A stretch of 64,000 nt of DNA from Chryseobacterium mulctrae (GTDB taxonomy: Bacteria > Bacteroidota > Bacteroidia > Flavobacteriales > Weeksellaceae): contig NZ_VAJL01000001.1 in assembly GCF_006175945.1 (NCBI RefSeq), forward strand, positions 3,357,001-3,421,000. Direction: 5' to 3'. Position 1 is the stretch's first letter. Each line of letters starts with the position of its first letter. Shown here one piece after another: positions 2 through 40,140 of this stretch. A program made the position numbers and the translations under genes. The notes below the pieces were generated by a model. That model made no database searches, was not told where the DNA came from, and saw only the letters and a program-made list of their open reading frames with translations.

Positions 2-958
2 CTAAATAATAAAAAACACAATATTATAGAGAAGGAATTCAATCTGCGCACCTATTTATTTGTCCTGAAAGATTTTTACAAAGGCGGAAGGTATGGAACG
101 ACTTTAAATGAAAGTGCCGATAATACGCTTTTTGACGAATCTTTTATTGTTTTTGAAATTGATAATGTGAAGGATAATCCCAAACTGTTTCCGATAGTAA
201 CGCTCATTATTATGGACACCTTTATTCAGAAAATGAGGTTAAGAAAAGACCGTAGAAAAGCACTCATCATCGAAGAAGCGTGGAAGGCCATTGCGAGTAA
301 ACTGATGGGAGGATACATCCTTTATTTGTACAAAACGGTGAGGAAATTTTGGGGAGAAGCGGTGGTGGTAACGCAGGAACTGGATGATATTATTGGAAAT
401 GCGGTGGTTAAAGATTCCATCATCAATAATTCGGACACTTTTATATTGCTGGATCAGACGAAGTTCAAAGATAATTTCGACAAGATAGCTTCGCTTCTTT
501 CACTTAATAAAGTAGAGCAAAACAAGATTTTCACCATCAACAATCTCAACAACAAATTCGGGCGAAGCCGATTCAAAGAATTCTATTTAAAGAGAGGTTC
601 GAAAGGAGAGGTCTATGGGAATGAAGTATCTCTGGAGCAATATTTAACCTATACCACAGAAAAACCGGAGAAATCGGCAGTTGAATATTATGTACATCAA
701 TATGGCGACTATGATGAAGCATTGCGCAGAATAGTTGGTGATCTCAAAGTCTTCGGAGACAGTCTGGAAAACTTAGTGTCACTCGTGAACTTATATCAAA
801 ATCCATTAGATAAAAAAATCAATTCTTTCTACAGAATAATGAAAAAAGAACACAAAGGGAAGAATGTTTTCAAAGTCATCTCACAGGAATTAGAAGACCG
901 CCAAATCACTTTTTCAGAATTAATCAGTAAACAAAATTACGCTTATGAAAACCTTTAA
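2..958 (+). CDS. traG: TraG, VirB4-like conjugation ATPase, C-terminal part
   Basis: The reading frame is open from base 2 and the gene begins outside the window. About 318 residues are visible. They contain a Walker B-like stretch (KALIIEEAWKAI, from about base 257) followed by the usual C-terminal portion of the Bacteroidetes TraG family. In this family TraG is the VirB4-type ATPase that energises assembly of the conjugation channel at the inner membrane. The Walker A region is not in the window. The stop overlaps the next start by 14 bases, so it is the upstream member of the tra operon that follows. The family call rests on the Walker B context and on the gene order after it. Confidence 0.85.
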   Translation, partial: LNNKKHNIIEKEFNLRTYLFVLKDFYKGGRYGTTLNESADNTLFDESFIVFEIDNVKDNPKLFPIVTLIIMDTFIQKMRLRKDRRKALIIEEAWKAIASKLMGGYILYLYKTVRKFWGEAVVVTQELDDIIGNAVVKDSIINNSDTFILLDQTKFKDNFDKIASLLSLNKVEQNKIFTINNLNNKFGRSRFKEFYLKRGSKGEVYGNEVSLEQYLTYTTEKPEKSAVEYYVHQYGDYDEALRRIVGDLKVFGDSLENLVSLVNLYQNPLDKKINSFYRIMKKEHKGKNVFKVISQELEDRQITFSELISKQNYAYENL

Positions 959-1670
959 AGCTATAAATTTTCCAAGAGGATTTCGTTACGTTTCATCTCT
1001 GGCGAACCACATTAGATTGAAGGTTTTTCTACTCATTTTCTCCCTATGGGGGACAATTGGATTCGCTCAAAACACTTACATCGACCCTACCGTAACGGCG
1101 GCAATGATTCTGTATTCTGAAAATCTAAAAGCCAAACAAAATGAAGTAATCGAAGAGACCTCAAAGTTAAAAGATGCTCAGATCTGGGTAGGAACACAGA
1201 TGGTGGCAGCCAATGACATTCAGAATAAAATTCTGAAAGGCTTGAAAGAAGTTTCAGGAACATTACAAAACGGAATTCAGGCACAGGAGATCTACTCAGA
1301 TCTCAATAAATGTTATAGTTATTCCTCACAAGTGGTACAACTAGCATCAGAACATCCTGAGTATGCCATTTTTGGGGTGAAAGCTTCACAAAAGACCTAT
1401 GAGCAAAGTCTAAAGATCGTGACAGATGTATCTGATATTCTCGCATCCGGAGAGCTGAATCTGGCTACTGCAGGAGATCGATATAAAATCTTGCATAATA
1501 TTTCCGGGAACGTCAAAAATCTGAAGCTTTGGCTTTTGGCGATTAAATTAAGACTGGAAAAAGCCAATCGACTAGGATTCTGGAATTCCATTAATCCATT
1601 TGCAGGCTACATCAATACAGACAAAGCTATTGTTGAAAATATAATGAACAGGTACAAACGGAATTTTTAA
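945..1670 (+). CDS. Exported conjugation protein, VirB5-slot paralogue 1
   Basis: 241 residues with a signal-peptide-like segment (LKVFLLIFSLWGTIGFAQ, residues about 26-43) after a longer than usual N-terminus. The rest is mostly helical and charged. It ends with INTDKAIVENIMNRYKRNF, a motif repeated in altered form at the end of the next three proteins. It lies between the VirB4-like TraG and the VirB6-like TraJ, where virB5 sits in classical type IV secretion operons, so a pilus-tip or channel-accessory role is inferred. TraI/DUF4141 proteins of Bacteroides conjugative transposons occupy the same place. The function is not shown directly. Confidence 0.7.
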   Translation: MKTFKAINFPRGFRYVSSLANHIRLKVFLLIFSLWGTIGFAQNTYIDPTVTAAMILYSENLKAKQNEVIEETSKLKDAQIWVGTQMVAANDIQNKILKGLKEVSGTLQNGIQAQEIYSDLNKCYSYSSQVVQLASEHPEYAIFGVKASQKTYEQSLKIVTDVSDILASGELNLATAGDRYKILHNISGNVKNLKLWLLAIKLRLEKANRLGFWNSINPFAGYINTDKAIVENIMNRYKRNF

Positions 1671-1681
1671 AAAATTACAAA

Positions 1682-2368
1682 ATGTTAAAGAAGATTCTTC
1701 TTAGCCTATCTATTCCGGCTGTTTATCTTGTGTTGACATCCTCCGGTGGTGGTTCTACACCAGCATGGCAACAGGAAAATGTATCATTTCCGATGATGGA
1801 TATAGAAATCAATGCCACGATGAAAGAACACGACAGGCAAAAAGAAATGCGACAAAAACAAATTGCGAATGCCACCGTAGAAACGGCCAATAGAAACCAA
1901 TGGAACAATTTTAAAGAAAAAATCACCAAAGTTCAGGACAGATTGCGAATTGTTTCATTTGCCATTCAAGCCATACCAACAGGAATAGCAATGAGCAGGG
2001 AAATAACAAAAATAACCAACAATCAGACTGCTATTATCAATGAAATAAACGATGCTCCTTATTCCATTATATCCGTTTTGCCTTCCCAAGTTCAGTTTGT
2101 TGATGATCTGCAAATGGTAACACGGCTTGTAACCGGGATCATTTTGTCTTACGGAGCCATCAATCAAATGGAAAAATCAGAACGTAAAGTATTATTAGAA
2201 TATGCTTTGGGCGAAATAAAAACATTGAGCAGGAATTCCACGCATATGCTTCTGAAGATAAGGGATATTAAAGCCAAAGTAAAACGCAATAAAAGAGCCT
2301 TTCAATATTATGTCAACAAAGATAAGCAGGTGGTTGAGAACATAATGAGTCACATCAAATCTTTCTAA
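1682..2368 (+). CDS. Exported conjugation protein, VirB5-slot paralogue 2
   Basis: 228 residues with an N-terminal hydrophobic segment (residues about 4-21) as a signal or anchor. A charged helical stretch rich in Lys, Glu and Gln covers roughly residues 35-80. The C-terminus, VNKDKQVVENIMSHIKSF, aligns with the ends of its three neighbours. It starts 11 bases after the previous stop and ends one base before the next start, so it is clearly cotranscribed. A VirB5-like or channel-accessory role is inferred from position only, and I recognise no named family with certainty. Confidence 0.65.
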   Translation: MLKKILLSLSIPAVYLVLTSSGGGSTPAWQQENVSFPMMDIEINATMKEHDRQKEMRQKQIANATVETANRNQWNNFKEKITKVQDRLRIVSFAIQAIPTGIAMSREITKITNNQTAIINEINDAPYSIISVLPSQVQFVDDLQMVTRLVTGIILSYGAINQMEKSERKVLLEYALGEIKTLSRNSTHMLLKIRDIKAKVKRNKRAFQYYVNKDKQVVENIMSHIKSF

Positions 2369-2369
2369 A

Positions 2370-3035
2370 ATGAAAAAAATATTTCTTTCCGGAGTTTTAT
2401 TCTTCTCCGTTGCATCGGTAAAAAGCCAGCAAATAGTCATTAATGATAAACTCCTTTCGCAGATCACCGTAAATCACGGTGTTCGATTGGGAAGCGAACA
2501 AGCTTTTTTGGATTCCTATGAAAAGCAAAAAGAATTGTATGATGACATCAACAATAAAATCACGCAGATCATAGCCATTCAGGAGTATATCTATCAACAA
2601 CTGAAAAATGTGAATTCAGCTTTGACCCAGAGCAAGAAACTTATTTATCTCTATCAATATTTAGGTAAAATAGTGACGAACTCCAATAAAATGCTGGATC
2701 TATCAGCGCAGCATCCTGAATATTCCGTACTCATTTCAAAATATTATGTTGAAATAGGCAAGCAGACGATGAAGCTTCAGCAGGAAGTTACCCAGGATAT
2801 TCTCAATGAAGACAAAGATTTTCTGATGGATGCAATGGATAGGGAAATGCTTATTGAAAAGATATTTACCCGTGTCAGAAATATCAACGGAAATATTCTG
2901 TACATCAATTTACGGTTAGAGAATGCCAAGAAAATCCCTTATCTGTATCAGGTTCCGGTTCTCCGCAATTACATCAATATAGACAAAGCCATTGTTGGCG
3001 ACATCATCACTAAATACCATTACCTCTTTAATTAA
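2370..3035 (+). CDS. Exported conjugation protein, VirB5-slot paralogue 3
   Basis: 221 residues beginning with a clear signal peptide (MKKIFLSGVLFFSVASVKSQ, cleavage likely near residue 19). The mature part is predicted helical, with a Gln/Lys-rich coiled-coil-like stretch at residues about 45-90. It also shares the segment around LSAQHPEYSVL with the ASEHPEYAIF segment of paralogue 1. It ends in INIDKAIVGDIITKYHYLF, the shared C-terminal motif. Two internal matches and one terminal match make common descent with 945-1670 convincing by eye. Exact role unknown; position points to a conjugation channel or pilus component. Confidence 0.68.
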   Translation: MKKIFLSGVLFFSVASVKSQQIVINDKLLSQITVNHGVRLGSEQAFLDSYEKQKELYDDINNKITQIIAIQEYIYQQLKNVNSALTQSKKLIYLYQYLGKIVTNSNKMLDLSAQHPEYSVLISKYYVEIGKQTMKLQQEVTQDILNEDKDFLMDAMDREMLIEKIFTRVRNINGNILYINLRLENAKKIPYLYQVPVLRNYINIDKAIVGDIITKYHYLFN

Positions 3036-3041
3036 AAAATT

Positions 3042-3872
3042 ATGGGAAATCTACTAAAAAAAATCAGTCTATTTCAGTTGCTCTTTTTTACAGCCACTGT
3101 GTTTGGACAATTGAGTGTAAAGAGATTGAATGACCCTTCCATTGTTGCTCAACATAAAAGAATTGTCTTTCAAGATTGGGGAGATTGGAGACCATATCCA
3201 AAATATTTTTTGGGAATCCAAACCAATTTTGCCTACGCAACAGTCTGGGGAATATGGGCTCCAAAGATCAACAGGGATTATAAAGACGGTGAAGATATTC
3301 GACCATTAAAACCTACAGGGGTGCAAAATCAGAGATTCGCCCAGTTAAAATTTCAGGAGGAAGAAGCAAAAAAAATAAAAGCAGCTTCAGATACCATTCA
3401 TAAAAGAAGTGTTCAGGATTTTGCCCATTGGACGTCCGCTACTGTTGATGCCGATCCTCTTTGGCTTTTGTATTACAAACGAATGTTAAAACCAATTACC
3501 GAATTCCCCGACCATCCACAAAATTTTATTGAATGGAGATTGAAAGACCAACAAACGTTTGAAACGCTCAATACGACAGGAACCATTAGAAGGCTTAAGG
3601 AAGAGCTGGATCTCATCAAAGAAAAATACGCAATGTCCAGAAGTATGGATATGCCAAGAGGAAAACGGTTCATTATGTACCACGAAACCCTTATTAAATG
3701 GAGAAAATTTGTGCGAGAGTTAAGGGATTACAATAACAAGACAACACTTCTTACAGATTACAAAAATATTTTAAAGAACCATTCAAATTATGCTTTGCCA
3801 CCTGGTTGGACACCCGCTTCAGACCAGCAAATTGTTCAAAATTTGATGAATCATTATAAACACCGATTTTAA
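3042..3872 (+). CDS. Exported conjugation protein, VirB5-slot paralogue 4
   Basis: 276 residues with an N-terminal signal peptide (ISLFQLLFFTATVFGQ, cleavage near residue 22). The first half is rich in Trp and Tyr (residues about 45-75, e.g. WGDWRPYPKYFLG) and unlike the other three paralogues. The C-terminus, ASDQQIVQNLMNHYKHRF, carries the same terminal motif as its three neighbours. The gene ends three bases before TraJ. The divergent N-terminal half may be a separate domain added to the shared terminal module. Function is inferred only from operon position. Confidence 0.65.
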   Translation: MGNLLKKISLFQLLFFTATVFGQLSVKRLNDPSIVAQHKRIVFQDWGDWRPYPKYFLGIQTNFAYATVWGIWAPKINRDYKDGEDIRPLKPTGVQNQRFAQLKFQEEEAKKIKAASDTIHKRSVQDFAHWTSATVDADPLWLLYYKRMLKPITEFPDHPQNFIEWRLKDQQTFETLNTTGTIRRLKEELDLIKEKYAMSRSMDMPRGKRFIMYHETLIKWRKFVRELRDYNNKTTLLTDYKNILKNHSNYALPPGWTPASDQQIVQNLMNHYKHRF

Positions 3873-3874
3873 AA

Positions 3875-5110
3875 ATGAATAAAACGATAACATTAACTTT
3901 TTGCTTATTAACAATTCTTTTACCTGTTATGGGTTTCGCCCAGACAGACGGTGATTACAGCAATCTACTCCAATTTTTAAAGGGAGATGGTGCCTTTGAA
4001 AAGTGGTTTATGGAAGTTTTTACAAAACTGGACAACAGTGTGCAGGATAGCGCCGCCGGTTCAGCTTTGGTAGGAAAAGCAATAGGCGGTTTAGGCGCTC
4101 TGATGTACCTCGGGTACATGGGTTGGCAAATGGCAGCCGGAGATAGAGAATGGGAAATCACACCGATGTTGAAACCAATTCTTATCGGATTTACCCTTGT
4201 TTACTGGAGTGGATTTGTCAGTATGATTCAAGCGCCATTTGAGGCCATTGCCGAACCCGGAATCTCAATTTTCAACGATATAGAATCGGAAGTCAATGAT
4301 TTACGGGTCGAGAGATTTAAAAAGCAGCAACAATTACTGGATGCTGTCATCAAATTAAAGGCGGAAGAAGATGCCAAACAGGAAGTCATTGAGAATACTA
4401 CTGAAGATGCGGATGATTCGTGGTATGACATCAGCGAAGGATTGGATAAACTCATTCAGCCCATCAAGGAATGGTCGATAAGAATGGAGTTCCAAATGCA
4501 AAAATTAGTAGCAGAACTCATTGAATTTTGTTGTCTTTCCATTCTTCGGATTTGTGTATATCTCATTTTCTTCATTCAAAAAATATGGTCTTACATTTTA
4601 ATTATTTTGGGGCCGATAGCTGTTGGAATGGCTCTTATTCCCGGATTTGAAAATTCATTATACAGTTGGGTATCAAAATTCATCAACATTAATCTTTACA
4701 CTTTTGTTGCCTATACGATCATCAACATCGGTCAGCAATTGATCGCTTCCGGTTATACAATGGAGATCGAAAGGTATGATACCTTATTATCCAATGGAAC
4801 CATTACCAACTTAGACGCTTTGATGGTCTATGTGAGCAACTCCGGAATGATCTACAATCAGCTTTTCACCTGTGTTGCCTATGTTGTTACGGGAATCGGA
4901 GTACTAATGACCCCAACCATTGCAGACAGTATTGTTTCTGCAGGAGGGGCGGGAGCAATGACGAAAATGAAAAGTGCAGCAGGAAAAATGGCAAGCAGTG
5001 CTAAAACAGCAATATTGGCTGCCAAAACAGGAGGAGCTTCTGTAGCAGCAAGTGCAGCAGCAGGTTCAGCATCAGGCAGAGTTCAAAGAGCGATGAAAAA
5101 AGGAAAATAA
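3875..5110 (+). CDS. traJ: TraJ, VirB6-like multi-span conjugation protein
   Basis: 411 residues starting with a signal peptide (residues about 1-22, ending GFAQ). Several membrane spans follow: near residues 65-90, 100-120, 220-260 and 320-350. The stretch at about 130-175 is charged and coiled-coil-like. The C-terminus is Ala/Gly/Ser/Lys-rich and low in complexity. This architecture and the place after the VirB5-slot genes match TraJ of Bacteroidetes conjugative transposons, thought to be the VirB6/TrbL-like polytopic inner-membrane subunit. A 54-base gap separates it from traK, the largest break in this part of the operon. Confidence 0.82.
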   Translation: MNKTITLTFCLLTILLPVMGFAQTDGDYSNLLQFLKGDGAFEKWFMEVFTKLDNSVQDSAAGSALVGKAIGGLGALMYLGYMGWQMAAGDREWEITPMLKPILIGFTLVYWSGFVSMIQAPFEAIAEPGISIFNDIESEVNDLRVERFKKQQQLLDAVIKLKAEEDAKQEVIENTTEDADDSWYDISEGLDKLIQPIKEWSIRMEFQMQKLVAELIEFCCLSILRICVYLIFFIQKIWSYILIILGPIAVGMALIPGFENSLYSWVSKFININLYTFVAYTIINIGQQLIASGYTMEIERYDTLLSNGTITNLDALMVYVSNSGMIYNQLFTCVAYVVTGIGVLMTPTIADSIVSAGGAGAMTKMKSAAGKMASSAKTAILAAKTGGASVAASAAAGSASGRVQRAMKKGK

Positions 5111-5164: not shown

Positions 5165-5779
5165 ATGCTTATCAAAAATATAGAACAAAGAATCAAGATC
5201 AACAAGGTCATTTCTTTATCCACCATTGCTTTTGCTGTTTTCATTGTCATTGCCGGATTTTTCTTTGCATACAGAATGATCGAGGATTCCAGAAAATCAA
5301 TTTACATTTTAGACAATGGCGTTCCGGTTCTTGCCAAGCAGACTGATGTCCTGCTGAACCGACCTGTTGAATATAAAGCTCAAATTGAATTATTCCACAG
5401 ATTGTTTTTCACACTCGCTCCCGATGATACCTATATCAAGGATAATATTCAAAAGTCATTGTATCTTATTGATGACAGCGGAAAAAAGGAATATACGAAC
5501 CTAAGGGAAAAAGGATTTTACAATCAAATAATAGCTTCCAGTTCGATGGTCAGTATCCATACCGATTCGATTACGCTTAGTATGGAACAAAAGAAATTTA
5601 GCTTTTTCGGTAAGCAGATGATCACAAGAAAATCTTCTGTCATTACGAGGAAGCTCATCACCGAAGGTTTCTTTGAAGACATCATCAGAAGTCCCAATAA
5701 TCCTCACGGTGTGATTCTTAAAAACTGGCGAATCATCAATAACGAGGAACTGTCCAATCAAAATAAAAATTCTTACTAA
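5165..5779 (+). CDS. traK: TraK, VirB8-like conjugation protein
   Basis: 204 residues: a short cytoplasmic N-terminus, one membrane span at about residues 17-38 (STIAFAVFIVIAGFFFAY), and a periplasmic domain. This matches TraK of Bacteroidetes conjugative transposons, an assembly-scaffold protein of VirB8 type. It lies in canonical order between TraJ and TraL and ends one base before the next start. The recognisable part is the segment after the span (RKSIYILDNGVPVLAKQTD), typical of the family. Confidence 0.88.
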   Translation: MLIKNIEQRIKINKVISLSTIAFAVFIVIAGFFFAYRMIEDSRKSIYILDNGVPVLAKQTDVLLNRPVEYKAQIELFHRLFFTLAPDDTYIKDNIQKSLYLIDDSGKKEYTNLREKGFYNQIIASSSMVSIHTDSITLSMEQKKFSFFGKQMITRKSSVITRKLITEGFFEDIIRSPNNPHGVILKNWRIINNEELSNQNKNSY

Positions 5780-25108: not shown

Positions 25109-26383
25109 ATGAAAATTAAATATAATATAGTATCTACGCTGTTAATTTCTTTTTTAGTCTTAAGCTGTGGAAAAAAAGAAGCCTCTGAGGAAACGGAAGT
25201 AAAAGCAAAAACCGAACAGGTAGAGGAGGCTCATGAAGAGGCACCGCAAACGATCGCGGCATTAACAGAAGAACAAATGAAAGCAGTCGGAATCTCCTTA
25301 GGTAAAATTGAGATGAAAGATCTGACCTCACTTGTTAAAGCCAATGGTGTATTGAGTGTTCCCAACAATAGAAAAGCTACCGTTACCTCTCTGTATGGTG
25401 GGGTGATTAAGACATTAAATGTACAGATAGGAGATCATGTGAGGAAAGGGCAGGTAATTGCATCAATCAATAATCCCGAGTATATTCAGCTTCAGGAGCA
25501 ATATCTTACAGTGAACAGCAGGATCGCGTTTGCTGAACAGGAATATAGAAGGCAACGTGAACTATTTGATAATGATGCCGGAGCAAAAAAGAATCTGCAA
25601 AGCTCTGATGCTGAATTAAAAAGTTTAAGAACCCAAAGATCATCACTACAGAGACAGCTCCAGCTTATGGGGATCAGCCCGGGTAAAGTAAGCAATGGTA
25701 ATCTACGATCTGGGTTGGTTATAACTTCACCGATCAGTGGAACCGTAAGCAGTATCAATGCGCAGATTGGAAGTTATGTTGATGTGGCATCACCAGTTCT
25801 TGATATTATTGATAATAGTTCTATCCATTTAGATCTTCAGGTTTTTGAAAAGGATCTACCTAAAATGAAAGTTGGACAAACTGTACAGTTTAAGCTGACC
25901 AATAATCCGGAAACTTTGTATAACGCTACCGTATTTAGTATCGGGTCGTCATTCGAAAATGAGAGTAAAACGATCTCTGTACATGCGAGTGTTACAGGAA
26001 ATAAAGTGGGGTTGATCGATGGGATGAATGTTACCGGAATGGTAAGCCTTGGAAACTCAAGCACCGCTGCCGTTCCTGATGAAGCAATCGTGGAAGCTGA
26101 CGGTAAATTCTATGTTTTCATACAGACTTCTAAAAAGCCTGAAGAACATGCTGAAGAGGAAGAAGGGGGTGAGAAAGAGGAAGGTACAAAAGAGGCAGCG
26201 CATACCAAGAATCAAGGAAAAACATTGAATTTTGAGAAAATAGAAATTGTTAAAGGTTCTTCAGATCTAGGTTATACTGCAATCACTCCAGTGACCAAAA
26301 TTGCACCTGATACAAACATTGTGGTAAAAGGTGCATTCTTCGTCAATGCTAAATTATCTAATTCAGGAGGGCATGAAGATTAG
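25109..26383 (+). CDS. czcB: CzcB-type RND periplasmic adaptor lipoprotein
   Basis: 424 residues with a lipobox, LVLSCGKKE (Cys about residue 20). A Glu-rich N-terminal region leads to a barrel-sandwich/hairpin adaptor. Two lipoyl-like halves flank a coiled-coil hairpin (about 130-190, QLQEQYLTVNSRIAFAEQEY). A Glu/His-rich insert lies near 340-370 (EEHAEEEEGGEKEEG), which may bind metal. It starts one base after the pump stop, so pump and adaptor form one operon. The adaptor bridges the inner-membrane pump and the outer-membrane factor. Confidence 0.9.
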   Translation: MKIKYNIVSTLLISFLVLSCGKKEASEETEVKAKTEQVEEAHEEAPQTIAALTEEQMKAVGISLGKIEMKDLTSLVKANGVLSVPNNRKATVTSLYGGVIKTLNVQIGDHVRKGQVIASINNPEYIQLQEQYLTVNSRIAFAEQEYRRQRELFDNDAGAKKNLQSSDAELKSLRTQRSSLQRQLQLMGISPGKVSNGNLRSGLVITSPISGTVSSINAQIGSYVDVASPVLDIIDNSSIHLDLQVFEKDLPKMKVGQTVQFKLTNNPETLYNATVFSIGSSFENESKTISVHASVTGNKVGLIDGMNVTGMVSLGNSSTAAVPDEAIVEADGKFYVFIQTSKKPEEHAEEEEGGEKEEGTKEAAHTKNQGKTLNFEKIEIVKGSSDLGYTAITPVTKIAPDTNIVVKGAFFVNAKLSNSGGHED

Positions 26384-26434
26384 ATTTATTATTACGAAAG
26401 CCTTTATATAAAAGTTTCAGCTGTAATAAAAAAT

Positions 26435-26484
26435 AACATTATGCTACGAATCGAATTAAATCGTGAACTACGTATCATAATGTT
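26435..26484. repeat. Imperfect palindrome before bestrophin gene
   Basis: Arms AACATTATGCTACG (26435-26448) and CGTATCATAATGTT (26471-26484) are complementary at 13 of 14 positions around a 22-base centre. No T-run follows, so an operator or recombination site is more likely than a terminator. It ends 24 bases before ATG 26509. Confidence 0.55.
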
Positions 26485-26508
26485 ATATCAAATCTATAAA
26501 CAAAAGTT

Positions 26509-27387
26509 ATGTTACTAAACAAGAAAATTTCAATCTGGTATTTTATTGATCAAATTAAAAGCCAAATATTACTGATTGTTATACTTGCTGTAGGTATAGG
26601 TTTGTTGGATCTGCATCCTATTTTCAAAAAAATATCAATTCCATTAAGCATTCCCGCAATTTTAGGAACTGCTGTATCACTGCTACTTGCATTTAGGACG
26701 GCGCAGTCATACGAGAGATGGTGGGAAGCAAGAACCGTTTGGGGTGCTATTGTTAATGATTCCAGGTCTCTTATCCGATTAATTATTCAGTTCATTCCTC
26801 AGGATAGTGCGGACGTTAAAATATTTGCAGAAAGACAAATCGTATGGGTCTATGCGTTAGGCGAAGCATTAAGAAAACAGCCTTTTTCCGGTAAAGTAGG
26901 GGAGTATTTGAATATGCATCAGATTAACGCTGTTAATATACCCAATGCAATTTTGGATGAACATTCTTATCACTTAAGACAAATAGCCGAAAAAGGATTG
27001 GTATCAGATTTCAAGGAGGTTCAGCTTAACGAAGTTCTCATGAGGCTGTGTGACAATATGGGAAAATGTGAAAGATTGAAAAATACGGTATTTCCACGTG
27101 CCTATAGTATTTTACTGCATACTCTTATATATGTTTTTGCTTTTATACTCCCTTTCGGATTGGAAGATTCCCAGCTCACCTTGGAAATTATTACAACGAT
27201 CACTATTCCTCTGCTATTTATAGCCATTGAGAAAACAGCAATCATCATGCAGGATCCTTTCGAGAATACTCCTGTGGATACGCCAATGACATCTATTGCA
27301 CAAACTATAGAAATCAATATTTTACAGATGATCAAAGAAAATGATATTCCTGTTAAAAAAGAAAATAATACTTACTTCGAAATGTAG
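26509..27387 (+). CDS. Bestrophin-family anion channel
   Basis: 292 residues with the bestrophin/YneE pattern. A membrane span (about 18-34) and a second (about 47-62) are followed by the family stretch AFRTAQSYERWWEARTVWGA (about 63-82). Further membrane segments lie at about 203-235. A proline-rich end piece, DPFENTPVDTPMTSI, lies near 250-265. Bacterial bestrophins are pentameric ion channels. It lies between the metal pump and the CDF exporter, so it may balance charge during metal stress; this is inference. A second member lies at 45801. Confidence 0.85.
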   Translation: MLLNKKISIWYFIDQIKSQILLIVILAVGIGLLDLHPIFKKISIPLSIPAILGTAVSLLLAFRTAQSYERWWEARTVWGAIVNDSRSLIRLIIQFIPQDSADVKIFAERQIVWVYALGEALRKQPFSGKVGEYLNMHQINAVNIPNAILDEHSYHLRQIAEKGLVSDFKEVQLNEVLMRLCDNMGKCERLKNTVFPRAYSILLHTLIYVFAFILPFGLEDSQLTLEIITTITIPLLFIAIEKTAIIMQDPFENTPVDTPMTSIAQTIEINILQMIKENDIPVKKENNTYFEM

Positions 27388-27413
27388 AGTCAATCTAGTA
27401 AATACATAAAATT

Positions 27414-28310
27414 ATGAGCGACACAAATAAACAGACTGGATCTGCATCAAGCAGACATAAGAAAAATTTACTCATCGTCCTAGCACTAAGTGGTACTTAT
27501 CTTATTGCTGAAGTCATTGGAGGAATTGCAACAAAAAGTCTTGCATTGCTTGCGGATGCTGCTCACATGCTAACAGATGTTGTCGGTTTACTCCTAGCAT
27601 TTATTGCAATCAAAATTGGTGAGAGAAAGGCTAGTCCTGAAAAAACATTTGGGTACTATCGCACAGAGATTTTGGCTGCTGTGATTAATGCTGTTGTGCT
27701 ATTGGGTATCTCATTATTTGTTTTATATGAGGCATTTCAAAGATTTAAAAATCCTCCTGAAGTGCAAAGTGGCTCCATGATGATCGTTGCAGGAATTGGT
27801 TTTGTGGTCAATATCATCGGTATCCTTATCATAAGAAAGGACTCCAATGAAAGTCTTAATATGAAAGGTGCTTATTTTGAGGTCTTGTCGGATATGCTGA
27901 CATCCGTAGGAGTAATGATCGCAGGTGTGATAATGCTGACAACACAATGGTATTACGCAGATCCGATCATTTCTGCGGCAATAGGTCTATTAATCATTCC
28001 CAGAACCTTAAAGTTGCTTATGGAAGCGGTTAATGTCTTATTGGAAGGTACACCGAAAGATGTAGATATCAGCAAGCTTCGATCTTCACTGGAAGAACTT
28101 TCGGGAATCAAGGAAATCCACGATCTACATGTCTGGTCGCTTACATCAGGCGTTAATGCCATGAGCGCACATGTGATTGCAGATGATAACAAAAATCGCA
28201 ATGAACTCCTGCAAATATTAATAGATAAAGCAACGACAGATTTTAAAATAACCCATACCACTTTTCAAATCGAATATGAAGGTTATGATGAAACTGAAAT
28301 ACACTTGTAG
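27414..28310 (+). CDS. czcD: CDF-family metal cation exporter, CzcD/ZitB-like
   Basis: 298 residues with the CDF layout: six membrane spans and a C-terminal cytoplasmic domain. The metal-site motif LLADAAHMLTDVVGLLLA (about 44-61) carries the expected HxxxD. A second metal-binding pair lies in the segment FEVLSDMLTSVGVM near 145-158. CDF proteins exchange Zn, Cd or Co for protons across the inner membrane. It sits in the metal island on the same strand as the pump. Confidence 0.92.
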   Translation: MSDTNKQTGSASSRHKKNLLIVLALSGTYLIAEVIGGIATKSLALLADAAHMLTDVVGLLLAFIAIKIGERKASPEKTFGYYRTEILAAVINAVVLLGISLFVLYEAFQRFKNPPEVQSGSMMIVAGIGFVVNIIGILIIRKDSNESLNMKGAYFEVLSDMLTSVGVMIAGVIMLTTQWYYADPIISAAIGLLIIPRTLKLLMEAVNVLLEGTPKDVDISKLRSSLEELSGIKEIHDLHVWSLTSGVNAMSAHVIADDNKNRNELLQILIDKATTDFKITHTTFQIEYEGYDETEIHL

Positions 28311-28421
28311 ATGAATGATCAGAATAGATTGAAAATGAAATGAAATCTAAATGATTATTTCTATATCAAATAAAATTGATTTCTAAAGAATTAATGATGT
28401 AATCACTTATAAAACTTGTTT

Positions 28422-30416
28422 ATGAAACTAATTAAAATTAAGCGAAGCAGTTATAGCCTGCTCATTAATTTTTTCTTATTATATATAATTTTTTCCTTTG
28501 TCCTCAGGATAGGATTTTCTATTGCCAGCCTTCAAAAGGCAGAGATTAGTTTTCTTTCATTGCTGAATGTATTTGCTCTGGGATTTTTATTTGATATAGG
28601 GGTAGGGGTGTTTTTTGTGCTACCGTACAGTCTGTACCTGCTTTTATTTCCTCAGAAATATAATAATTCGCTTTTCAATAGAGCTATGACTTTTTTTTGC
28701 TTTAATGTAGCTGTGCTTATATTGTTGTTTTCATTTTTTGCTGAAGTAACATTCTGGCAGGAATTTGAAAGCCGGTTTAATTTTATTGCAGTTGATTATC
28801 TGGTTTATACCTATGAAGTAATCAATAATATTAATGAATCATATCCTTTGCCATTGCTCATTACAGCCATGTTAATAATGACTTCTTTGGTGTTTTTACT
28901 TTTCTATAAAAGGCATTACTTCACAGATAATTTTAAGGGCAGTACACCTTTTTTACAAAGATTCTTTATCTTTTTCGGATTGCTTTTCATTTCAGTCATT
29001 TATGCATTTTTTATTGACAACAGTTTAGCAGAGAATAGCGAAAACAGGTATCGGAATGAGCTGTCAAAATCAGGAATCTATTCTTTTTTTTCTGCATATA
29101 AAAATAACGAGATCAATTATGAACACTTCTATAAACTCATCGATAATAGGGTGGCGTTTAATATTGTGAGAACTGATCTCCAGGAATCTAACTCAGATTA
29201 CTTATCAAATGATTTCTCAATCTTACGTAACATTAAGGGAGCTGACTCCTATGAGAAGCCCAATGTTATTATGATCACATTGGAAAGTTTCAGTGCAGAC
29301 TTTATGAAAACATTTGGCAACAATCAGAATCTGACACCTACGTTGGACTCATTGGCGAATCAAAGCATTTTATTTACCAATATGTATGCTACCGGAACAA
29401 GAACCGTGCGAGGAATGGAGGCACTTTCACTTGCCGTTCCGCCTACACCGGGGAATAGTATTGTCCGCAGGAAAGAAAATGATAATCTGAGCACTGTAGG
29501 ATCGATCTTCAGTCAAAAGGGATATGATACTTCTTTCTTATATGGTGGTGATGGTTATTTTGATAATATGAATAATTATTTCGGTAATAATGGATACACA
29601 ATTGTAGACCGGAAAAGAAATTCTTTTGTAGGGGAAGATTATCAGTCTCCAAGAATACCAATAGAAGACAAGGAGGTCACTTTTGAAAATGCCTGGGGTA
29701 TTAGTGATGAAAATCTTTATGATCAGGTGATAAAGCAAGCAGATCAAAAATTTGCAGCGGGGAAACCTTTTTACGATTTTGTAATGAACACTTCCAATCA
29801 TCGTCCTTATACATATCCTGAAGGAAAGATTGATATTCCCTCGGGATCGGGAAGGGAAGGCGCCGTGAAATACACAGATTATGCGATCGGTCAGTTTTTT
29901 AAAAAGATAAAGAATAAATCCTGGTACAAAAATACCATTGTTATAATTGTTGCAGATCATTGTGCCAGCAGTGCGGGCAAGAACGATATCGATGTCGCAA
30001 AATACCATATCCCTGCAATGATTGTCAACCTGAACGACAACGAACCATTCAGAATTGAAAAAATGTGCTCTCAGATCGATTTGTATCCAACACTTTTCGC
30101 ACTTTTAGGTTGGACATATCAGAGTAATCTTTATGGTAAAAATGTTTTAGGCGAAAGCTATATTCCAAGAATATTTGTAAGTACCTATCAGAAACTTGGA
30201 TATATGGAAAACAACAAATTGGTTATTCTAGGTCCACAGCAAAAAACAGAGACGTATTTGTATGACAAGGAGAAAAATAAACAAAATCCAGAGATGCTGT
30301 CTGAACAGTATGTAAAAAAAGCGATAGCAAATTATCAGTCGGCCTACTATCTTTTCAAGAATGAAGGATTAAAACAGAAGCGGATTAAAAAGGGAAATAT
30401 AACCACAACTAGATAA
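28422..30416 (+). CDS. LTA-synthase-like sulfatase-family membrane enzyme
   Basis: 664 residues from ATG 28422. Five N-terminal membrane spans (about 10-205) precede an extracytoplasmic sulfatase-fold domain (about 285-610). The opening metal-site segment VIMITLESFSADFMKTFG and the nucleophile region ATGTRTVRGMEAL are visible. Later segments include NTSNHRPYTYP and IVADHC. The family includes lipoteichoic acid synthases and Gram-negative phosphoglycerol or phosphoethanolamine transferases. In this organism the substrate is unknown; an envelope lipid or glycan change is the likely outcome. Confidence 0.85.
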   Translation: MKLIKIKRSSYSLLINFFLLYIIFSFVLRIGFSIASLQKAEISFLSLLNVFALGFLFDIGVGVFFVLPYSLYLLLFPQKYNNSLFNRAMTFFCFNVAVLILLFSFFAEVTFWQEFESRFNFIAVDYLVYTYEVINNINESYPLPLLITAMLIMTSLVFLLFYKRHYFTDNFKGSTPFLQRFFIFFGLLFISVIYAFFIDNSLAENSENRYRNELSKSGIYSFFSAYKNNEINYEHFYKLIDNRVAFNIVRTDLQESNSDYLSNDFSILRNIKGADSYEKPNVIMITLESFSADFMKTFGNNQNLTPTLDSLANQSILFTNMYATGTRTVRGMEALSLAVPPTPGNSIVRRKENDNLSTVGSIFSQKGYDTSFLYGGDGYFDNMNNYFGNNGYTIVDRKRNSFVGEDYQSPRIPIEDKEVTFENAWGISDENLYDQVIKQADQKFAAGKPFYDFVMNTSNHRPYTYPEGKIDIPSGSGREGAVKYTDYAIGQFFKKIKNKSWYKNTIVIIVADHCASSAGKNDIDVAKYHIPAMIVNLNDNEPFRIEKMCSQIDLYPTLFALLGWTYQSNLYGKNVLGESYIPRIFVSTYQKLGYMENNKLVILGPQQKTETYLYDKEKNKQNPEMLSEQYVKKAIANYQSAYYLFKNEGLKQKRIKKGNITTTR

Positions 30417-30427
30417 AGTGATATAAA

Positions 30428-30889
30428 ATGGATCTAAAATTTGAACTTTTACTTGCCGGAAAATTATTATTAGCACTGTTTTTTGGCGCGATAATAGGTT
30501 TCGAAAGAGAAACTGCCCATAAAGATGCAGGGGTTCGCACTTTTGGCGTTCTCTGTATGGCTTCTTGCTTATTTGTGGCAGTTGCCTCGCATCTTACAGA
30601 TGATAAATCTGCAATAGCGAGAATGTTGGCGGCGATACCTGCCGGTTTAGGATTTATCGGAGCTGGACTGGCATTTAAAGATAGTTCCAAAAGCATGCAG
30701 GGGCTTACAACATCCACTGCTTTATGGGCTGCATCGGCAATAGGATCTGCCCTTGCACTGAACATGTTTTTGTTATCTTTTTTAGCAACTGTTCTTACCT
30801 TGTTCATCTTAAGTATTAACAAATTTGGCTGGTATAAAAAAATTCTAAAAACCGGAAGACAATCAGACCAGGATATATATATAAAGTAA
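30428..30889 (+). CDS. MgtC/SapB-family membrane protein
   Basis: 153 residues: the hydrophobic MgtC domain only, with the family opening LLLALFFGAIIGFERE (about 14-29) and AGVRTFGVLCMASCLF (about 34-49). The C-terminal soluble domain of MgtC is absent, as in many SapB-type members. MgtC proteins are linked to magnesium limitation and ATP-synthase control in other bacteria. It begins 12 bases after the sulfatase gene, so they are probably one unit. Confidence 0.88.
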   Translation: MDLKFELLLAGKLLLALFFGAIIGFERETAHKDAGVRTFGVLCMASCLFVAVASHLTDDKSAIARMLAAIPAGLGFIGAGLAFKDSSKSMQGLTTSTALWAASAIGSALALNMFLLSFLATVLTLFILSINKFGWYKKILKTGRQSDQDIYIK

Positions 30890-30916
30890 CCTAAAAATCA
30901 TAAAAATAATATTATT

Positions 30917-32965
30917 ATGGAACATAAACACATCTACGACGAAAATGGAAAGCAGCTCTGCTGTACTCCACAGGAAGGCAAAATCTATAAAGATGCTGGA
31001 GCCAAAAAATTAGTTGAAGAAGACGGATGCTGCGCTCCAAAGAAGAAAACGGAAGATCATCAACATACAGATGATGATGGACATGATCATGCAGAAACTG
31101 ATAAAACAGCGTTTCAGATGTTCTTGCCTGCGATTATTTCTTTGGTATTGTTATTAGCAGGCATTGCATTGGACAATTACATTAAGCCTGAATGGTTTAA
31201 AGACTGGGTACGTATTGTCTGGTACGGTGTTGCTTATCTACCGGTAGGCCTACCGGTTTTAAAAGAGGCATTTGAAAGTATCAAACAAGGTGATGTGTTT
31301 TCAGAATTTTTCCTTATGAGCATTGCAACGATAGGGGCTTTCATTATCGGAGAATTTCCTGAAGGAGTAGCGGTTATGTTGTTCTATGCAGTAGGAGAGG
31401 TTTTTCAGACTCTGGCTGTGTCGAGAGCTAAAACCAATATTAAGGCTCTTTTAGATCAACGTCCTGATGAGGTAACGATTATTGAAAATAATCAGCCTAA
31501 AAAAATCAAAGCTGCCGAAGCCAAAATCGGGGATACGATTCAGTTAAAATCAGGAGAAAAACTGGCATTGGACGGAGAACTGATCTCCGATTCTGCGTCT
31601 TTCAATACCGCAGCGTTAACAGGAGAGAGCAAACCTGATTCTAAAAATAAAGGTGAAACAGTTTTAGCCGGAATGATCAATATGAACAGCGTAGCTTTGA
31701 TTAAGGTTAATACAGCTTATGAGGATAGCAAACTCAGTAAGATCCTTGAACTGGTACAAAATGCAACAGCTCAAAAAGCTCCGACTGAACTTTTTATCAG
31801 AAAATTTGCAAGAATTTACACCCCAATTGTGGTTGCATTAGCTGTTTTGATCTGCTTAGTACCTTATTTCTTTGTTGATGATTATGTTTTCAGAGATTGG
31901 TTGTACAGAGCATTGATTTTCTTAGTTATATCTTGTCCGTGTGCATTGGTGATCTCTATCCCGCTTGGCTATTTTGGAGGTATCGGAGCAGCGAGCCGCA
32001 ATGGTATATTATTTAAAGGAAGCAACTTTTTGGATAAGATCGCTGAGATTCAGAATGTGGTAATGGATAAGACCGGAACTATGACAGAAGGTGTTTTCAA
32101 AGTTCAGGACGTTACCATTAAAGAAGGATTTGACAAAGATGAGATTCTCCAATTGGTCAATGTTGTTGAAAGTAAAAGTACCCATCCTGTGGCTACTGCT
32201 GTTCACGAGTTTGTAGGAGAGATCAACAATTCGATCAATTTAGAGGATACTGAAGAAATTGCAGGGCATGGGCTTAAAGCGAGAGCTAATGGGAAGGAAA
32301 TCCTGGTGGGTAATTTTAAACTATTGGATAAATTTAAGATCGGTTATGATGTAGACCCATCCAAAATCGTATATACGGTGATAGCTATCGCATATGATGG
32401 AAAATTTGCAGGATTCATTACGATTGCCGACCGAATCAAGGACGATGCAAAGCAAGCAGTTGAAAAACTTCATAGCTTGAATGTAAAAGCGACTATGCTA
32501 AGTGGTGACAAGACAACTGTAGTAAAATATGTGGCTGAGCAGATCGGTATTGACAATGCTTTTGGAGACCTGCTTCCGGAAGATAAGGTCAACAAGGTCA
32601 AAGAAATCAAAGCAAGAAATGAAAGTGTGGCTTTTGTTGGTGATGGTGTAAATGATGCGCCTGTAGTAGCATTAAGTGATGTTGGAATAGCAATGGGTGG
32701 ACTTGGCAGCGATGCGACCATCGAAACTGCCGATGTTGTGATCCAGGATGATAAACCATCAAAAATACCTATGGCGATCAATATTGGAAAGAAGACCAAA
32801 AGGATCGTCTGGCAGAATATCATTCTTGCCTTTGTTGTAAAAGCCATCGTGCTCGTACTTGGAGCTGGTGGACTGGCTACGATGTGGGAAGCTGTATTTG
32901 CTGATGTGGGAGTTGCTTTGATTGCAATACTCAATGCAGTCAGGATTCAAAGAATGAAATTTTAA
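30917..32965 (+). CDS. P1B heavy-metal ATPase, ZntA/CadA type
   Basis: 682 residues. Motifs in order: TGES (about 239), SCPCALV (about 343), phosphorylated DKTGT (about 383), the HP pair in STHPVA (about 422) and GDGVNDAP (about 574). The CPC motif and the remaining spans indicate Zn/Cd/Pb export. In place of a folded heavy-metal-associated domain there is a Cys/His-rich N-terminus with LCCTP, DGCCAP and HQHTDDDGHDHAE (about 13-58), probably a flexible metal-binding tail. It lies in the metal island on the same strand as czcA and czcD. Confidence 0.93.
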   Translation: MEHKHIYDENGKQLCCTPQEGKIYKDAGAKKLVEEDGCCAPKKKTEDHQHTDDDGHDHAETDKTAFQMFLPAIISLVLLLAGIALDNYIKPEWFKDWVRIVWYGVAYLPVGLPVLKEAFESIKQGDVFSEFFLMSIATIGAFIIGEFPEGVAVMLFYAVGEVFQTLAVSRAKTNIKALLDQRPDEVTIIENNQPKKIKAAEAKIGDTIQLKSGEKLALDGELISDSASFNTAALTGESKPDSKNKGETVLAGMINMNSVALIKVNTAYEDSKLSKILELVQNATAQKAPTELFIRKFARIYTPIVVALAVLICLVPYFFVDDYVFRDWLYRALIFLVISCPCALVISIPLGYFGGIGAASRNGILFKGSNFLDKIAEIQNVVMDKTGTMTEGVFKVQDVTIKEGFDKDEILQLVNVVESKSTHPVATAVHEFVGEINNSINLEDTEEIAGHGLKARANGKEILVGNFKLLDKFKIGYDVDPSKIVYTVIAIAYDGKFAGFITIADRIKDDAKQAVEKLHSLNVKATMLSGDKTTVVKYVAEQIGIDNAFGDLLPEDKVNKVKEIKARNESVAFVGDGVNDAPVVALSDVGIAMGGLGSDATIETADVVIQDDKPSKIPMAINIGKKTKRIVWQNIILAFVVKAIVLVLGAGGLATMWEAVFADVGVALIAILNAVRIQRMKF

Positions 32966-33009
32966 AAGAGATTATCACAGATAAAAATAGAGCAAATTCT
33001 AGTATCCTG

Positions 33010-33039
33010 TTTCCTTAGGATATTACAATTCTAAGGAAA
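33010..33039. repeat. Perfect 9-bp inverted repeat downstream of ATPase gene
   Basis: TTTCCTTAG and CTAAGGAAA pair perfectly across a 12-base spacer. No T-run follows, so it is more like an operator than a terminator. It lies between the ATPase gene and the PAP2 gene. Confidence 0.5.
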
Positions 33040-33069
33040 ATTTGCCTCCACTCATATTATTAAGATTGA

Positions 33070-33090
33070 GTTCCCATAAAAGATGGGAAC
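33070..33090. repeat. Second perfect hairpin before PAP2 gene
   Basis: GTTCCCAT and ATGGGAAC form eight perfect pairs around the five-base loop AAAAG. No poly-T follows. It lies 31 bases after the first inverted repeat and about 85 bases before ATG 33176. Confidence 0.5.
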
Positions 33091-33175
33091 AGGGAAGTTA
33101 CATCCAATTTTACGATATAAAATTGAATACTATTAATGTTAGATCCGAACAATAAAAATCAGAAATATAATTTTT

Positions 33176-33967
33176 ATGTGGACTTATGTAAAAAAAAACT
33201 CAATACTAATCCTTTTACTGAAATTCTCTCTAAGTATTTATGCTCAGGATAGTTTGTCATTGCAAAAAACTGCTCAACAAGATTCTTTAATAATAAGAGA
33301 TGATACTTTGGATTATAAAAAACTTATTGTTCCGGTTAGCTTGATATCGGCAGGTGCAATTGGTTTTACAATTCCTGAAATCAAAAAGTTTGATTATGAT
33401 GTGAGAAGGGAGGTAAACGATCATACATTAAACAATTCAAAATTAGACAACTATACCTTATTTGTACCAGCTGCGCTCGTTTATGGTTTAAACATAGCGG
33501 GTGTTCGAGGGAAACATAACTTAAAAGATCGAACGATCATTTTAGCAACATCACAAGCTATCTTATTGGCAATAGTTATTCCTTCAAAATCATTGATCGG
33601 CAGGGAGCGGCCTGATCAATCAAATTATATGTCATTTCCCTCAGGTCATGCAGCGATCGCATTTTCAACTGCACAGTTTATGTTCAGAGAATATAGGGAC
33701 AGCAATTATTGGATCAGTCTGTCAGGATATCCGTTTGCCATTTTTACTAGTGTGTACAGAATCATCAATAATAAGCATTGGGTTACAGATGTCCTGTCTG
33801 GTGCTGGTATCGGAATTTTTTCTACTGAGATAGCATATTGGTTATATCCAAAGATCAAAACTTTATTTAAAAGTAAGAATGAAAAAACATTATCTATGAT
33901 TTCTCCTTATTTCCAGAAGAGTTATCAGCAGAAAAGTTTGGGTTTGAATTACCAGCTATTTTTTTAA
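33176..33967 (+). CDS. PAP2-family membrane phosphatase
   Basis: 263 residues with a signal-like N-terminus (ending YAQD, about residue 24) and several membrane spans. The three PAP2 motifs are visible: K-x6-RP as KSLIGRERP (about 141-149), PSGH (about 157-160), and R-x5-H-x3-D in YRIINNKHWVTD (about 197-208). PAP2 enzymes dephosphorylate lipid pyrophosphates or phosphatidate. With the LTA-synthase-like enzyme it suggests envelope lipid or carrier modification as part of the cargo. The substrate cannot be read from sequence. Confidence 0.87.
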   Translation: MWTYVKKNSILILLLKFSLSIYAQDSLSLQKTAQQDSLIIRDDTLDYKKLIVPVSLISAGAIGFTIPEIKKFDYDVRREVNDHTLNNSKLDNYTLFVPAALVYGLNIAGVRGKHNLKDRTIILATSQAILLAIVIPSKSLIGRERPDQSNYMSFPSGHAAIAFSTAQFMFREYRDSNYWISLSGYPFAIFTSVYRIINNKHWVTDVLSGAGIGIFSTEIAYWLYPKIKTLFKSKNEKTLSMISPYFQKSYQQKSLGLNYQLFF

Positions 33968-38762: not shown

Positions 38763-40004
38763 ATGAACACAAAGCTTTCAATTCTCTTTTATATCAAAAG
38801 AGCAAAAACAACATCCCAAGGAAAATCTCCAATCTATTTACGTGTAACTGTTGACAGCAAAAGAACAGAATTTAGCATCAAAAGATTTGTTGAAACTCAT
38901 AAATGGAGTTCCGAACAAAACAAGATGAAAGGCAATTCTGAAGAATCCAGAACGCTTAATACCTATTTGGATATACTCAAATCCAGAATTTATGAAATTC
39001 AGAAAGACCTCATCCATTCTGATAAAGAAGTCAATGGAGAAGCTATTAAAAATATACTGTTGGGAATTGATGAAAGAAAGCGAATGCTTATTCCGATTTT
39101 TCAGGAGCATAATAGCAGAATGGAGGCATTGCTGGGAAAAGAATATGCAAAAGGAACTTTGACGAGATATAAAACCTGTCTGAGCCATATCAAAGAATTC
39201 CTAAAATGGAAGTTTAATATTTCGGATATCGAGATTACAGAGATAGATCACGCTTTCATTTATGACTTTGAGTTTTTCCTGAGAACAGAAAAATCCTGCG
39301 CTAATAATTCAGCAGTTAAGTATGTCAAAAATTTTGGTAAAATTATTAGAATATGCTTAGCTAATAAGTGGATGATTCACGATCCTTTTTTAGGATATAA
39401 TTCTAAATTCGTTGAGGTAAACAGAGGTTTTTTGGATGAAGAAGAACTAGCACGTTTGCAAAATAAAGTACTGAAGATAGAACGCATTGCTTTGGTTCGT
39501 GATGTCTTTCTTTTTAGTTGCTATACAGGGCTTTCATTCATCGATGCGTGGAATCTTTCAAAAGACAATATCGGAACTGGAATTGATGGGAATAAATGGA
39601 TTTTTACCGCTCGTCAGAAAACAAAGATAGCTTCTCATATACCTTTGCTCCCTATTGCCGAAGATATTATAAAGAAATATGAAAAACATCCGATGTGTGC
39701 AATTTCCGGCAAACTGCTTCCTGTTCTCAGTAATCAGAAAATGAATGCCTATCTTAAAGAAATTGCGGATTTGTGCGACATATCTAAAGAACTCACTTTT
39801 CACATTGCCAGACACACATTTGCAACAACAGTAACGCTCTCCAATGGCGTACCTATTGAAAGCGTGAGCAAAATGCTTGGTCACAAAAGCATCAAGACTA
39901 CTCAACATTATGCAAAAATTCTGGATAAGAAAGTGAGTGAGGATATGTTAATATTAAAGAATAAGCTTCAAAATAAAGCAGAGGTTAAGGAGATTTCCTG
40001 TTAG
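38763..40004 (+). CDS. Tyrosine integrase 1 (Bacteroidetes ICE type)
   Basis: 413 residues. The N-terminal arm-binding and SAM-like domains (about 1-200) precede the catalytic domain. Catalytic positions visible: Arg in [14 protein letters not shown] (about 243), HIARHTF (about 343), [14 protein letters not shown] with the final Tyr (about 381). It integrates or excises an element at an att site, here most simply the tRNA-Asp core 360 bases upstream. A close relative is at 47325 and a broken third copy at 59627. It may belong to a different element from the one ending at 38405. Confidence 0.9.
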
Positions 40005-40058
40005 TGATATTTAAATAATCCTTCCTTTAGATTTGATTAAAATAATCTATTCGGTTAC

Positions 40059-40098
40059 AAGAAAGACTTGGATTATAAAATCCAAGCCTTTCTTTATA
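40059..40098. terminator. Terminator between integrase 1 and OMP gene
   Basis: AAGAAAGACTTGGATT and ATCCAAGCCTTTCTT (40059-40074, 40080-40094) form a long stem with one mismatch and a small loop. T-rich on one side and A-rich on the other, it can serve both converging genes. Confidence 0.65.
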
Positions 40099-40140
40099 AA
40101 CCTGAGAAAATGTATTTAATAACTATTAAAATTTGAAAAA

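Follow-up and report, generated by a model that had tools for sequence, protein, structure and literature searches.

Which proteins occupy the interval between the VirB4-type ATPase and the VirB6-like protein of a Bacteroidota conjugation operon, and why should one operon carry four of them? The question is raised by a 64,000-nucleotide stretch of the Chryseobacterium mulctrae genome (contig NZ_VAJL01000001.1, positions 3,357,001 to 3,421,000), referred to here in its whole length as the window, in which four consecutive genes, p1 to p4, lie between those for TraG and TraJ. The initial annotation took them for four paralogues produced by gene amplification in the VirB5 slot. Our comparisons suggest no local or recent amplification; the gene set is better described as an old, fixed array of three related genes plus one (3+1) that occupies the TraI slot in one branch of Bacteroidota conjugation systems. 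The features are as follows (E, expectation value; ORF, open reading frame).

2..958, + strand: TraG (VirB4-type ATPase), 3' part, the window opening inside the gene (P-loop_TraG, E 1e-84; TIGR03783, E 1.9e-77)
945..1670, + strand: p1, TraI-like subunit 1, likely start TTG 1017 (217 residues); ATG 945 would give 241 residues
1611..1667, + strand: p1 C-terminal tail
1682..2368, + strand: p2, paralogue of p1 and p3 by profile comparison
2312..2365, + strand: p2 C-terminal tail
2370..3035, + strand: p3, TraI-like subunit 3, nearest to CTnDOT TraI among p1 to p3
2973..3032, + strand: p3 C-terminal tail
3042..3872, + strand: p4, predicted exported partner from a different family whose C-terminal tail is of the same type
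3819..3869, + strand: p4 C-terminal tail, degenerate form
3875..5110, + strand: TraJ (VirB6-like; TrbL, E 8e-5, and TIGR03782, E 7.5e-25, both below cut-offs)
5165..5779, + strand: TraK (TIGR03781, E 1.1e-65, above cut-off)
After TraK, in this order: a small ORF, TraM and TraN

As first described, four consecutive ORFs for exported proteins (945-1670, 1682-2368, 2370-3035 and 3042-3872) separate TraG (VirB4) from TraJ (VirB6), which is the position that defines the VirB5 slot; each product has a hydrophobic N-terminal segment, identified by visual inspection rather than with a signal-peptide program. From TraG to TraJ, neighbouring genes either overlap or are separated by no more than about a dozen bases and are thus likely to form one operon. 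Scans of p1 to p4 against Pfam, NCBIfam and PHROG return no family above cut-off, and a sequence search of the PDB with p1 returns nothing.

Three comparisons link p1, p2 and p3. First, plain BLASTP aligns p1 with p3 at 32% identity over 159 residues (E 2e-20). Second, profiles of 21 orthologues each connect p1 with p3 (E 2e-21), p1 with p2 (3e-10) and p2 with p3 (4e-5), while the TraJ and TraK controls give nothing below 0.04. Third, in profiles of 121 sequences each, drawn from 113 distinct sets, the same pairs reach 1.4e-49, 9.6e-26 and 1.2e-22, with TraK controls at 0.02 or worse. On this evidence p1, p2 and p3 are true paralogues by duplication. The best matches of p4 to the p1 to p3 profiles cover its C-terminal part only, in consistent register (E 1e-4 to 2e-3; 6e-5, 0.015 and 0.019 with signal peptides cut), and its body appears to belong to a different family that has the tail, and possibly the C-terminal half, in common with the other three. 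Paralogy of all four, as initially proposed, thus holds for p1 to p3 (profile E 1e-22 to 1e-49) and gives way in p4 to a tail-level resemblance; the HPEY segment reported for p1 and p3 is present in both.

The composition of the array is constant. The order TraG-p1-p2-p3-p4-TraJ is found in 20/20 loci of the same genus and in 20/20 further loci, with p4 cut short in one of the latter (L123) and the p3 tail missing from another (L122). Among 80 named loci, the best 80 of 191 confirmed (Sphingobacterium, Parapedobacter, Pedobacter, Mucilaginibacter, Algoriphagus and two unclassified Bacteroidetes bins), p1 to p3 are present in all 80 and p4 in 79, the exception (L179) being a short contig that ends at that point. 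In total, over Weeksellaceae, Sphingobacteriaceae and Algoriphagus, p1 to p3 occur in 120/120 loci and p4 in 119/120; these represent 116 distinct places (L104=L234, L105=L173, L106=L218, L107=L246), and because loci were located via p1 or p4, the presence of the search gene itself is by construction.

Overall, the array seems uncommon. Within the window's family, p4 was detected in 62 of 197 genomes, spread over 16 of 33 genera; a single-sequence search with p1 identifies it in 26 of 117 relatives, all in one genus of 31; and p1-profile searches, whose first look scored only about ten candidates per genome, find it in 4/247 genomes class-wide and 6/296 phylum-wide. Nine plasmid records match p1, and the four that were read comprise two with the full set and two with one p1-like and one p4-like gene (1+1). 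One of the two full-set plasmids is Sphingobacterium faecium pWB8, classed as non-mobilizable in PLSDB. An open-literature search of titles and abstract openings, with most subscription journals outside its range, found no description of the array. A second p1-p4 operon is located about 650 kb away in the same genome (C1:4006000-4018000, L031) and is 92-97% identical. One Mucilaginibacter genome has an extra ORF between p1 and p2 in both of its array loci (L106:4942-5463, L107:6952-7650), and the p3 without a C-terminus in L122 and the shortened p4 in L123 may reflect array decay.

Such constancy bears on whether each copy supplies a different tip or adhesin, retained to suit different recipients. 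Bartonella Trw provides a precedent: there trwJ (VirB5), together with trwI and trwH, has been amplified in tandem, as has trwL, and the amplification is tied to host specificity (PMC2883598). Sequence variability points weakly the same way: mean pairwise identity within the genus is 83% for TraG, 84% for TraK, 81% for p1, 79% for TraJ, 74% for p4, 74% for p2 and 72% for p3, so that p2 to p4 are somewhat more variable than TraG and TraK (72-74% vs 83-84%). At this difference, however, p2 to p4 are more variable than the core yet not hypervariable, and p1 resembles TraJ. Copy number varies between species in Bartonella, according to the same paper, whereas it is constant here, and in the phylogeny considered below p2 forms a single clade, as does each position of a second array (the t-positions), and p1 does so moderately, with p3 not recovered. 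A fixed number of copies and the absence of hypervariability disfavour recipient-specific amplification, which we regard as improbable. What stands of the proposed amplification is the origin of p1 to p3 by duplication; its recipient-specific part conflicts with the fixed number, the age of the positions and the conservation of p1, which is about that of TraG and TraJ.

The source of the duplicated gene is suggested by the TraI protein (DUF4141, PF13605) of CTnDOT-type elements. With signal peptides removed, a p3 profile matches 5/5 CTnDOT-type TraI proteins at E 4e-5 to 1e-7 and 0/117 TraK, and comparison of the p3 and TraI profiles gives E 2.2e-8, or 1.5e-4 with signal peptides cut. The mature p1 profile reaches TraI at 9e-5 to 0.005, with a few matches of similar strength in other groups; that of mature p2 has no direct match to TraI, to which p2 is linked only via p1 and p3. 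These matches support p3, and more weakly p1, as distant relatives of CTnDOT TraI, with kinship over the mature protein that would place p3, and less firmly p1, in a wider TraI superfamily. The 53-position PF13605 model itself has no match in p1 to p4 at E up to 10, while the TraI of the same genome passes it at E 4.7e-18. Kinship to VirB5 or TraI is therefore not confined to one member of the array, as p1 to p3 are kin to one another and p3 and p1 are kin to TraI.

The further connection of TraI to VirB5 or TrbJ is only a lead. TraI with its signal peptide matches the VirB5 model TIGR02791 at E 5.2e-7. Without the signal peptide, 4/4 TraI proteins match that model at 0.005-0.018, and the same four mature proteins match the TrbJ model PRK13874 at 0.008 to 0.032, these mature matches all being far below cut-offs. 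A profile of 13 plasmid VirB5 sequences reaches mature p1 at an E of only 0.003 (probability 10%) and a distant TraI-like group at 6e-5, across 19 columns. No match of p1 to p4 to PF07996 or TIGR02791 is found, where R388 TrwJ, the positive control, matches PF07996 at 2.6e-35; a PF07996 scan of the whole genome is empty, though its controls are equally silent. The description of the four as relatives in the VirB5 slot can accordingly be kept in part: three are related mutually, and at least p3 and p1 to TraI, but VirB5 models go unmatched.

It is conceivable, then, that TraI-type proteins, p1 to p3 included, are an unrelated helical periplasmic factor that happens to occupy the VirB5 slot. In favour of this, removing the signal peptides leaves sequence matches to VirB5 that are weak or indistinguishable from noise, and Foldseek gave no fold match. 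VirB5 and TrbJ models nevertheless recur among the weak matches of 4/4 mature TraI proteins searched against 18,950 models, although models of unrelated families reach similar scores; the alignment of PF07996 with a distant TraI-like protein is in register (2-142 to 1-141), with an E of only 0.11; and the gene position is identical to that of VirB5. On balance an unrelated factor appears unlikely, and a TraI origin of p1 to p3, possibly VirB5-like, is preferred.

Comparison across the phylum indicates how the set may have arisen. That known operons hold one such gene is correct for CTnDOT-type operons, in which TraI is single in 5/5 loci (four of them picked by 79-82% TraI identity), and it does not extend to a separate three-gene array that is common elsewhere in the phylum. 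The CTnDOT-type operon of C. mulctrae itself (C1:450000-462000, L053) has TraJ and TraK above NCBIfam cut-offs and one TraI (DUF4141) between TraG and TraJ. A further TraI-like operon lies on a small contig (C3:26000-40000, L054), giving this genome four tra clusters of three kinds. A phylum search for TraI-like sequences, with a first look limited to seven candidates per genome, identified 53 clusters in 40/395 genomes: 29 single, some of them distant or partial matches, 17 of three, six of two and one listed as four, which is one ORF matched twice and so a set of three. Three of the six two-gene clusters have a gap where the middle copy would sit.

The three-gene sets, here the t-trio (t1 to t3), do not correspond position by position to p1 to p3. 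In a tree of 71 sequences, p1, p2, p3 and a plasmid protein, A, are separated from TraI, the t-trio and all other sequences (98/99), with t1, t2 and t3 in a group of their own (97/90). Approximately unbiased (AU) tests reject p1 with t1 (p 2.5e-39), p2 with t2 (1.2e-5) and p3 with t3 (1.1e-7), and positional orthology is thus rejected. In the best tree p2 and each t-position are single clades and p1 is moderately so, while p3 is split (two changes), with 23% of bootstrap trees uniting it in a single clade. The simplest reading is that the window-type set and the t-trio represent two separate triplications, with the caution that branches are long and identity between the p and t sides is about 20%. 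One genome (G118) contains a 3+1 set, a t-trio and a single-TraI operon side by side (L105, L154, L166). Protein A belongs to the 1+1 set of Adhaeribacter and Pontibacter plasmids (Hymenobacteraceae), arranged TraG-A-B-TraJ. It matches p1 (5e-37, 9e-37), p3 (1e-34, 1e-36) and p2 (3e-20, 1e-25), and protein B matches p4 weakly (0.0015, 4e-4). This 1+1 state may be ancestral to the window-type set; the best tree places A beside p2 (97/97), both on long branches, a placement that would point instead to p1 and p3 having been lost.

The second common property of the four proteins is their C-terminus. The motif (I/V)N-x-DK-x-(I/V)V-x-x-I(M/I), initially reported in all of them, is present literally in p1 (INTDKAIVENIM), p2 (VNKDKQVVENIM) and p3 (INIDKAIVGDII); p4 ends in ASDQQIVQNLM, which does not match it and conforms only to a degenerate form. 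Among orthologues, the p1 to p3 tail has a consensus of roughly NPF-x-x-Y-(I/V)-N-x-D-K-x-(I/V)-x-x-x-I-I, the NPF of which is missing from many p2 and p3 in the window's family, followed by about eight lineage-dependent residues (YK-x-x-F in p1 of that family, NAKYLK in much of Mucilaginibacter and Pedobacter). The p4 tail mostly retains (S/T)-D-x-x-I-(V/A)-x-x-(I/V/L)-(L/M). Comparison of paralogues shows much stronger conservation in the tail than in the body, with a mean BLOSUM62 score per column of 2.47 in the tail vs 0.21 in the body for p2 and p3 of one locus.

Within its own genome the tail is found only on these proteins, and the terminal motif rises above background. A profile of p1 to p3 tails alone (15 rows, the window's three included) places the six p1 to p3 C-termini of the two operons at ranks 1-6 (E 4e-15 to 1e-8); those of the two p4 proteins follow at ranks 7 and 8, at an E of only 0.057 and 0.064. 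With p4 included in the model, nothing but the eight C-termini of both operons is retrieved (E 2e-13 to 3e-7; the next match is at 0.83), an exclusivity that is partly by construction because the four tails of the window are themselves in the model and the other operon closely resembles the first. In a scan of 138 window ORFs, the C-terminus next after p1 to p3 was that of a + strand ORF ending at 25107 (19.4, vs 9.3 for p4), which is probably chance because it does not appear in the genome-wide searches.

Across other loci, a 14-column p1 to p3 model, whose core was chosen after the result of a 32-column model was known, has its best window at the C-terminus in 19/22 scored p4 representatives (of 23; L122 and L123, with truncated p3 or p4, were excluded before representatives were picked) and in 98/119 of all scored p4 sequences, near copies among them. 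The corresponding figures are 1/22 for TraJ and 0/22 for TraK, and 23 shuffled p4 sequences give a mean of 1.15 and a maximum of 4. The 32-column model, too long for p4, places the C-terminus first in 3/22 p4 representatives, 0/22 TraJ and TraK, and 4/32 other ORFs. Tails were also compared within loci for signs of a common partner. Over all loci, they match better within than between loci in all six pairs, by shuffles that ignore relatedness and with rows L198, L104, L244 and L044 omitted from the p4 comparisons. Within single clades the result is mixed: outside Weeksellaceae, p2-p3 gives a signal confined to the tail (p 0.0001, against 0.48 for the body), p1-p2 shows nothing, and the p1-p3 signal extends to the body.

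The terminus is thus real and compatible with the docking role first suggested for it, which we infer in the scheme below. It could instead serve as a signal for sorting, for a chaperone or for processing, and not as a docking helix of the finished machine. Its position at the C-terminus, its shortness and its presence on four exported proteins, and on nothing else found in the genome, speak for such a signal; moreover, CagH and CagI were partly mislocalised when the Cag hexapeptide was lost, and the authors hypothesise a sorting role (PMC3164655). The predicted structures, however, place a helix after a linker in both proteins modelled, which fits docking equally well. We consider a signal tail rather unlikely and continue with docking.

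Evidence from those models is limited by their confidence: the AlphaFold prediction for p1 has a predicted local distance difference test score (pLDDT) of 72 and a predicted template modelling score (pTM) of 0.50, and that for p4 has values of 76 and 0.45. Both suggest a long helical bundle, a linker and a terminal helix (residues 201-216 in the 217-residue form of p1, 261-273 in p4). In the preferred scheme p1 to p3 would derive from a single TraI subunit, possibly VirB5-like, of Bacteroidota conjugation systems, and would assemble with p4 into a stalk or tip of mixed subunits, placed in the periplasm or, alternatively, at the pilus tip. The subassembly would be mounted on VirB6-like TraJ, as the VirB5 pentamer is seated on the VirB6 pentamer in R388 (PMC9259494), and each subunit would dock through its common C-terminal helix, behind a short linker, onto TraJ or onto one another, in the manner put forward for CagH, CagI and CagL.

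Several results weigh against this scheme. Foldseek returns nothing below E 0.28 for p1 or 2.5 for p4, and no VirB5 is among the best 50 of 316 rows for p1. Mature p1, mature p3 and the Hymenobacteraceae protein match no VirB5 model; the VirB5 profile is at noise (0.17-0.51) against mature p2, p3, p4 and TraI itself; and unrelated models equal VirB5 on mature TraI (a glycosyltransferase at 0.0019, GalR at 0.0023). The mature p3 model matches 0/27 t-trio, distant, plasmid and d1 sequences. For the tail, p4 is not significant genome-wide once left out of the model (E 0.057), it lacks the tail in 3/22 representatives, and in TraI, the t-trio and distant TraI-like proteins the C-terminus scores best in only 2/30; with the tail absent from TraI and the t-trio, docking would therefore be lineage-specific. 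Weighing these points, we assign a probability of roughly 0.48 to the reading that p1 to p3 are anciently diverged TraI copies that form, with p4, one obligate hetero-oligomer docked on TraJ through the tails.

Two features of the locus stand apart from this argument. The start of p1 is uncertain and likely TTG 1017: most orthologues align only from about residue 17-26 onward, near that codon, and the 72 additional 5' bases (945-1016) are without counterpart in the second operon copy (C1, about 4.009 Mb). The extension is also present in one close relative (L002, 97% over residues 1-241). The possibility that it is a dispersed repeat was rejected, as the genome gave one weak 30-base match elsewhere. 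Farther downstream, at 25109-33967 and 38763-43200, are genes for HlyD/CusB-type efflux, cation efflux and P-type ATPase proteins, followed by a tyrosine integrase, an IS91-type transposase and a second integrase; the region looks like metal-resistance cargo near an integration module.

The proposal gives a family and a likely role to four genes that are listed as hypothetical proteins in two annotated plasmids with the full set, and it provides a short peptide, the tail, whose removal tests docking directly. If a fixed mixed set of three or four subunits did evolve twice, the tip or stalk of widespread Bacteroidota conjugative elements would be built differently.

Comparison with known systems places the array among several partial likenesses. 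CTnDOT-type TraI has the same TraG-TraJ slot, a similar length, an N-terminal hydrophobic segment and sequence kinship to p3 and p1, but it is one gene vs three, has a different C-terminal motif and no p4 was found with it; p1 to p3 miss PF13605. The Bacteroidota t-trio likewise consists of three tandem TraI paralogues between TraG and TraJ, but appears to be a separate triplication with no p4 match and no p-type tail. R388 TrwJ, VirB5 by TIGR02791 and PF07996, also lies between VirB4 and VirB6 but is a single gene, and the 13-sequence VirB5 profile is not significant against p1 to p3 with signal peptides cut; proteins of its type are thought to contact the recipient and start the pilus, and form a ring of five in R388 (PMC9259494, PMC12857230). 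Bartonella Trw has tandem VirB5 copies too, but these vary in number and are accompanied by trwI and trwH (PMC2883598). In the Helicobacter pylori Cag system, adjacent type IV secretion genes, cagH, cagI and cagL, encode products that co-purify, of which CagH and CagL resemble each other in their C-terminal part; all three share a C-terminal hexapeptide on which function depends (PMC3164655). In the C. mulctrae genome, too, a C-terminal motif was found only on members of the set, a restriction that is partly by construction. Cag differs in its hexapeptide vs about 18 residues and in injecting protein rather than being conjugative, and it is likened here by description, not sequence. A broader and distinctly tentative reading is that, on two independent occasions, an obligate assembly of three subunits took the place of a homo-oligomeric VirB5-like tip or stalk in Bacteroidota conjugation machines, that the window's lineage added a fourth subunit, and that all would plug in through the same C-terminal helix, convergent with CagH, CagI and CagL.

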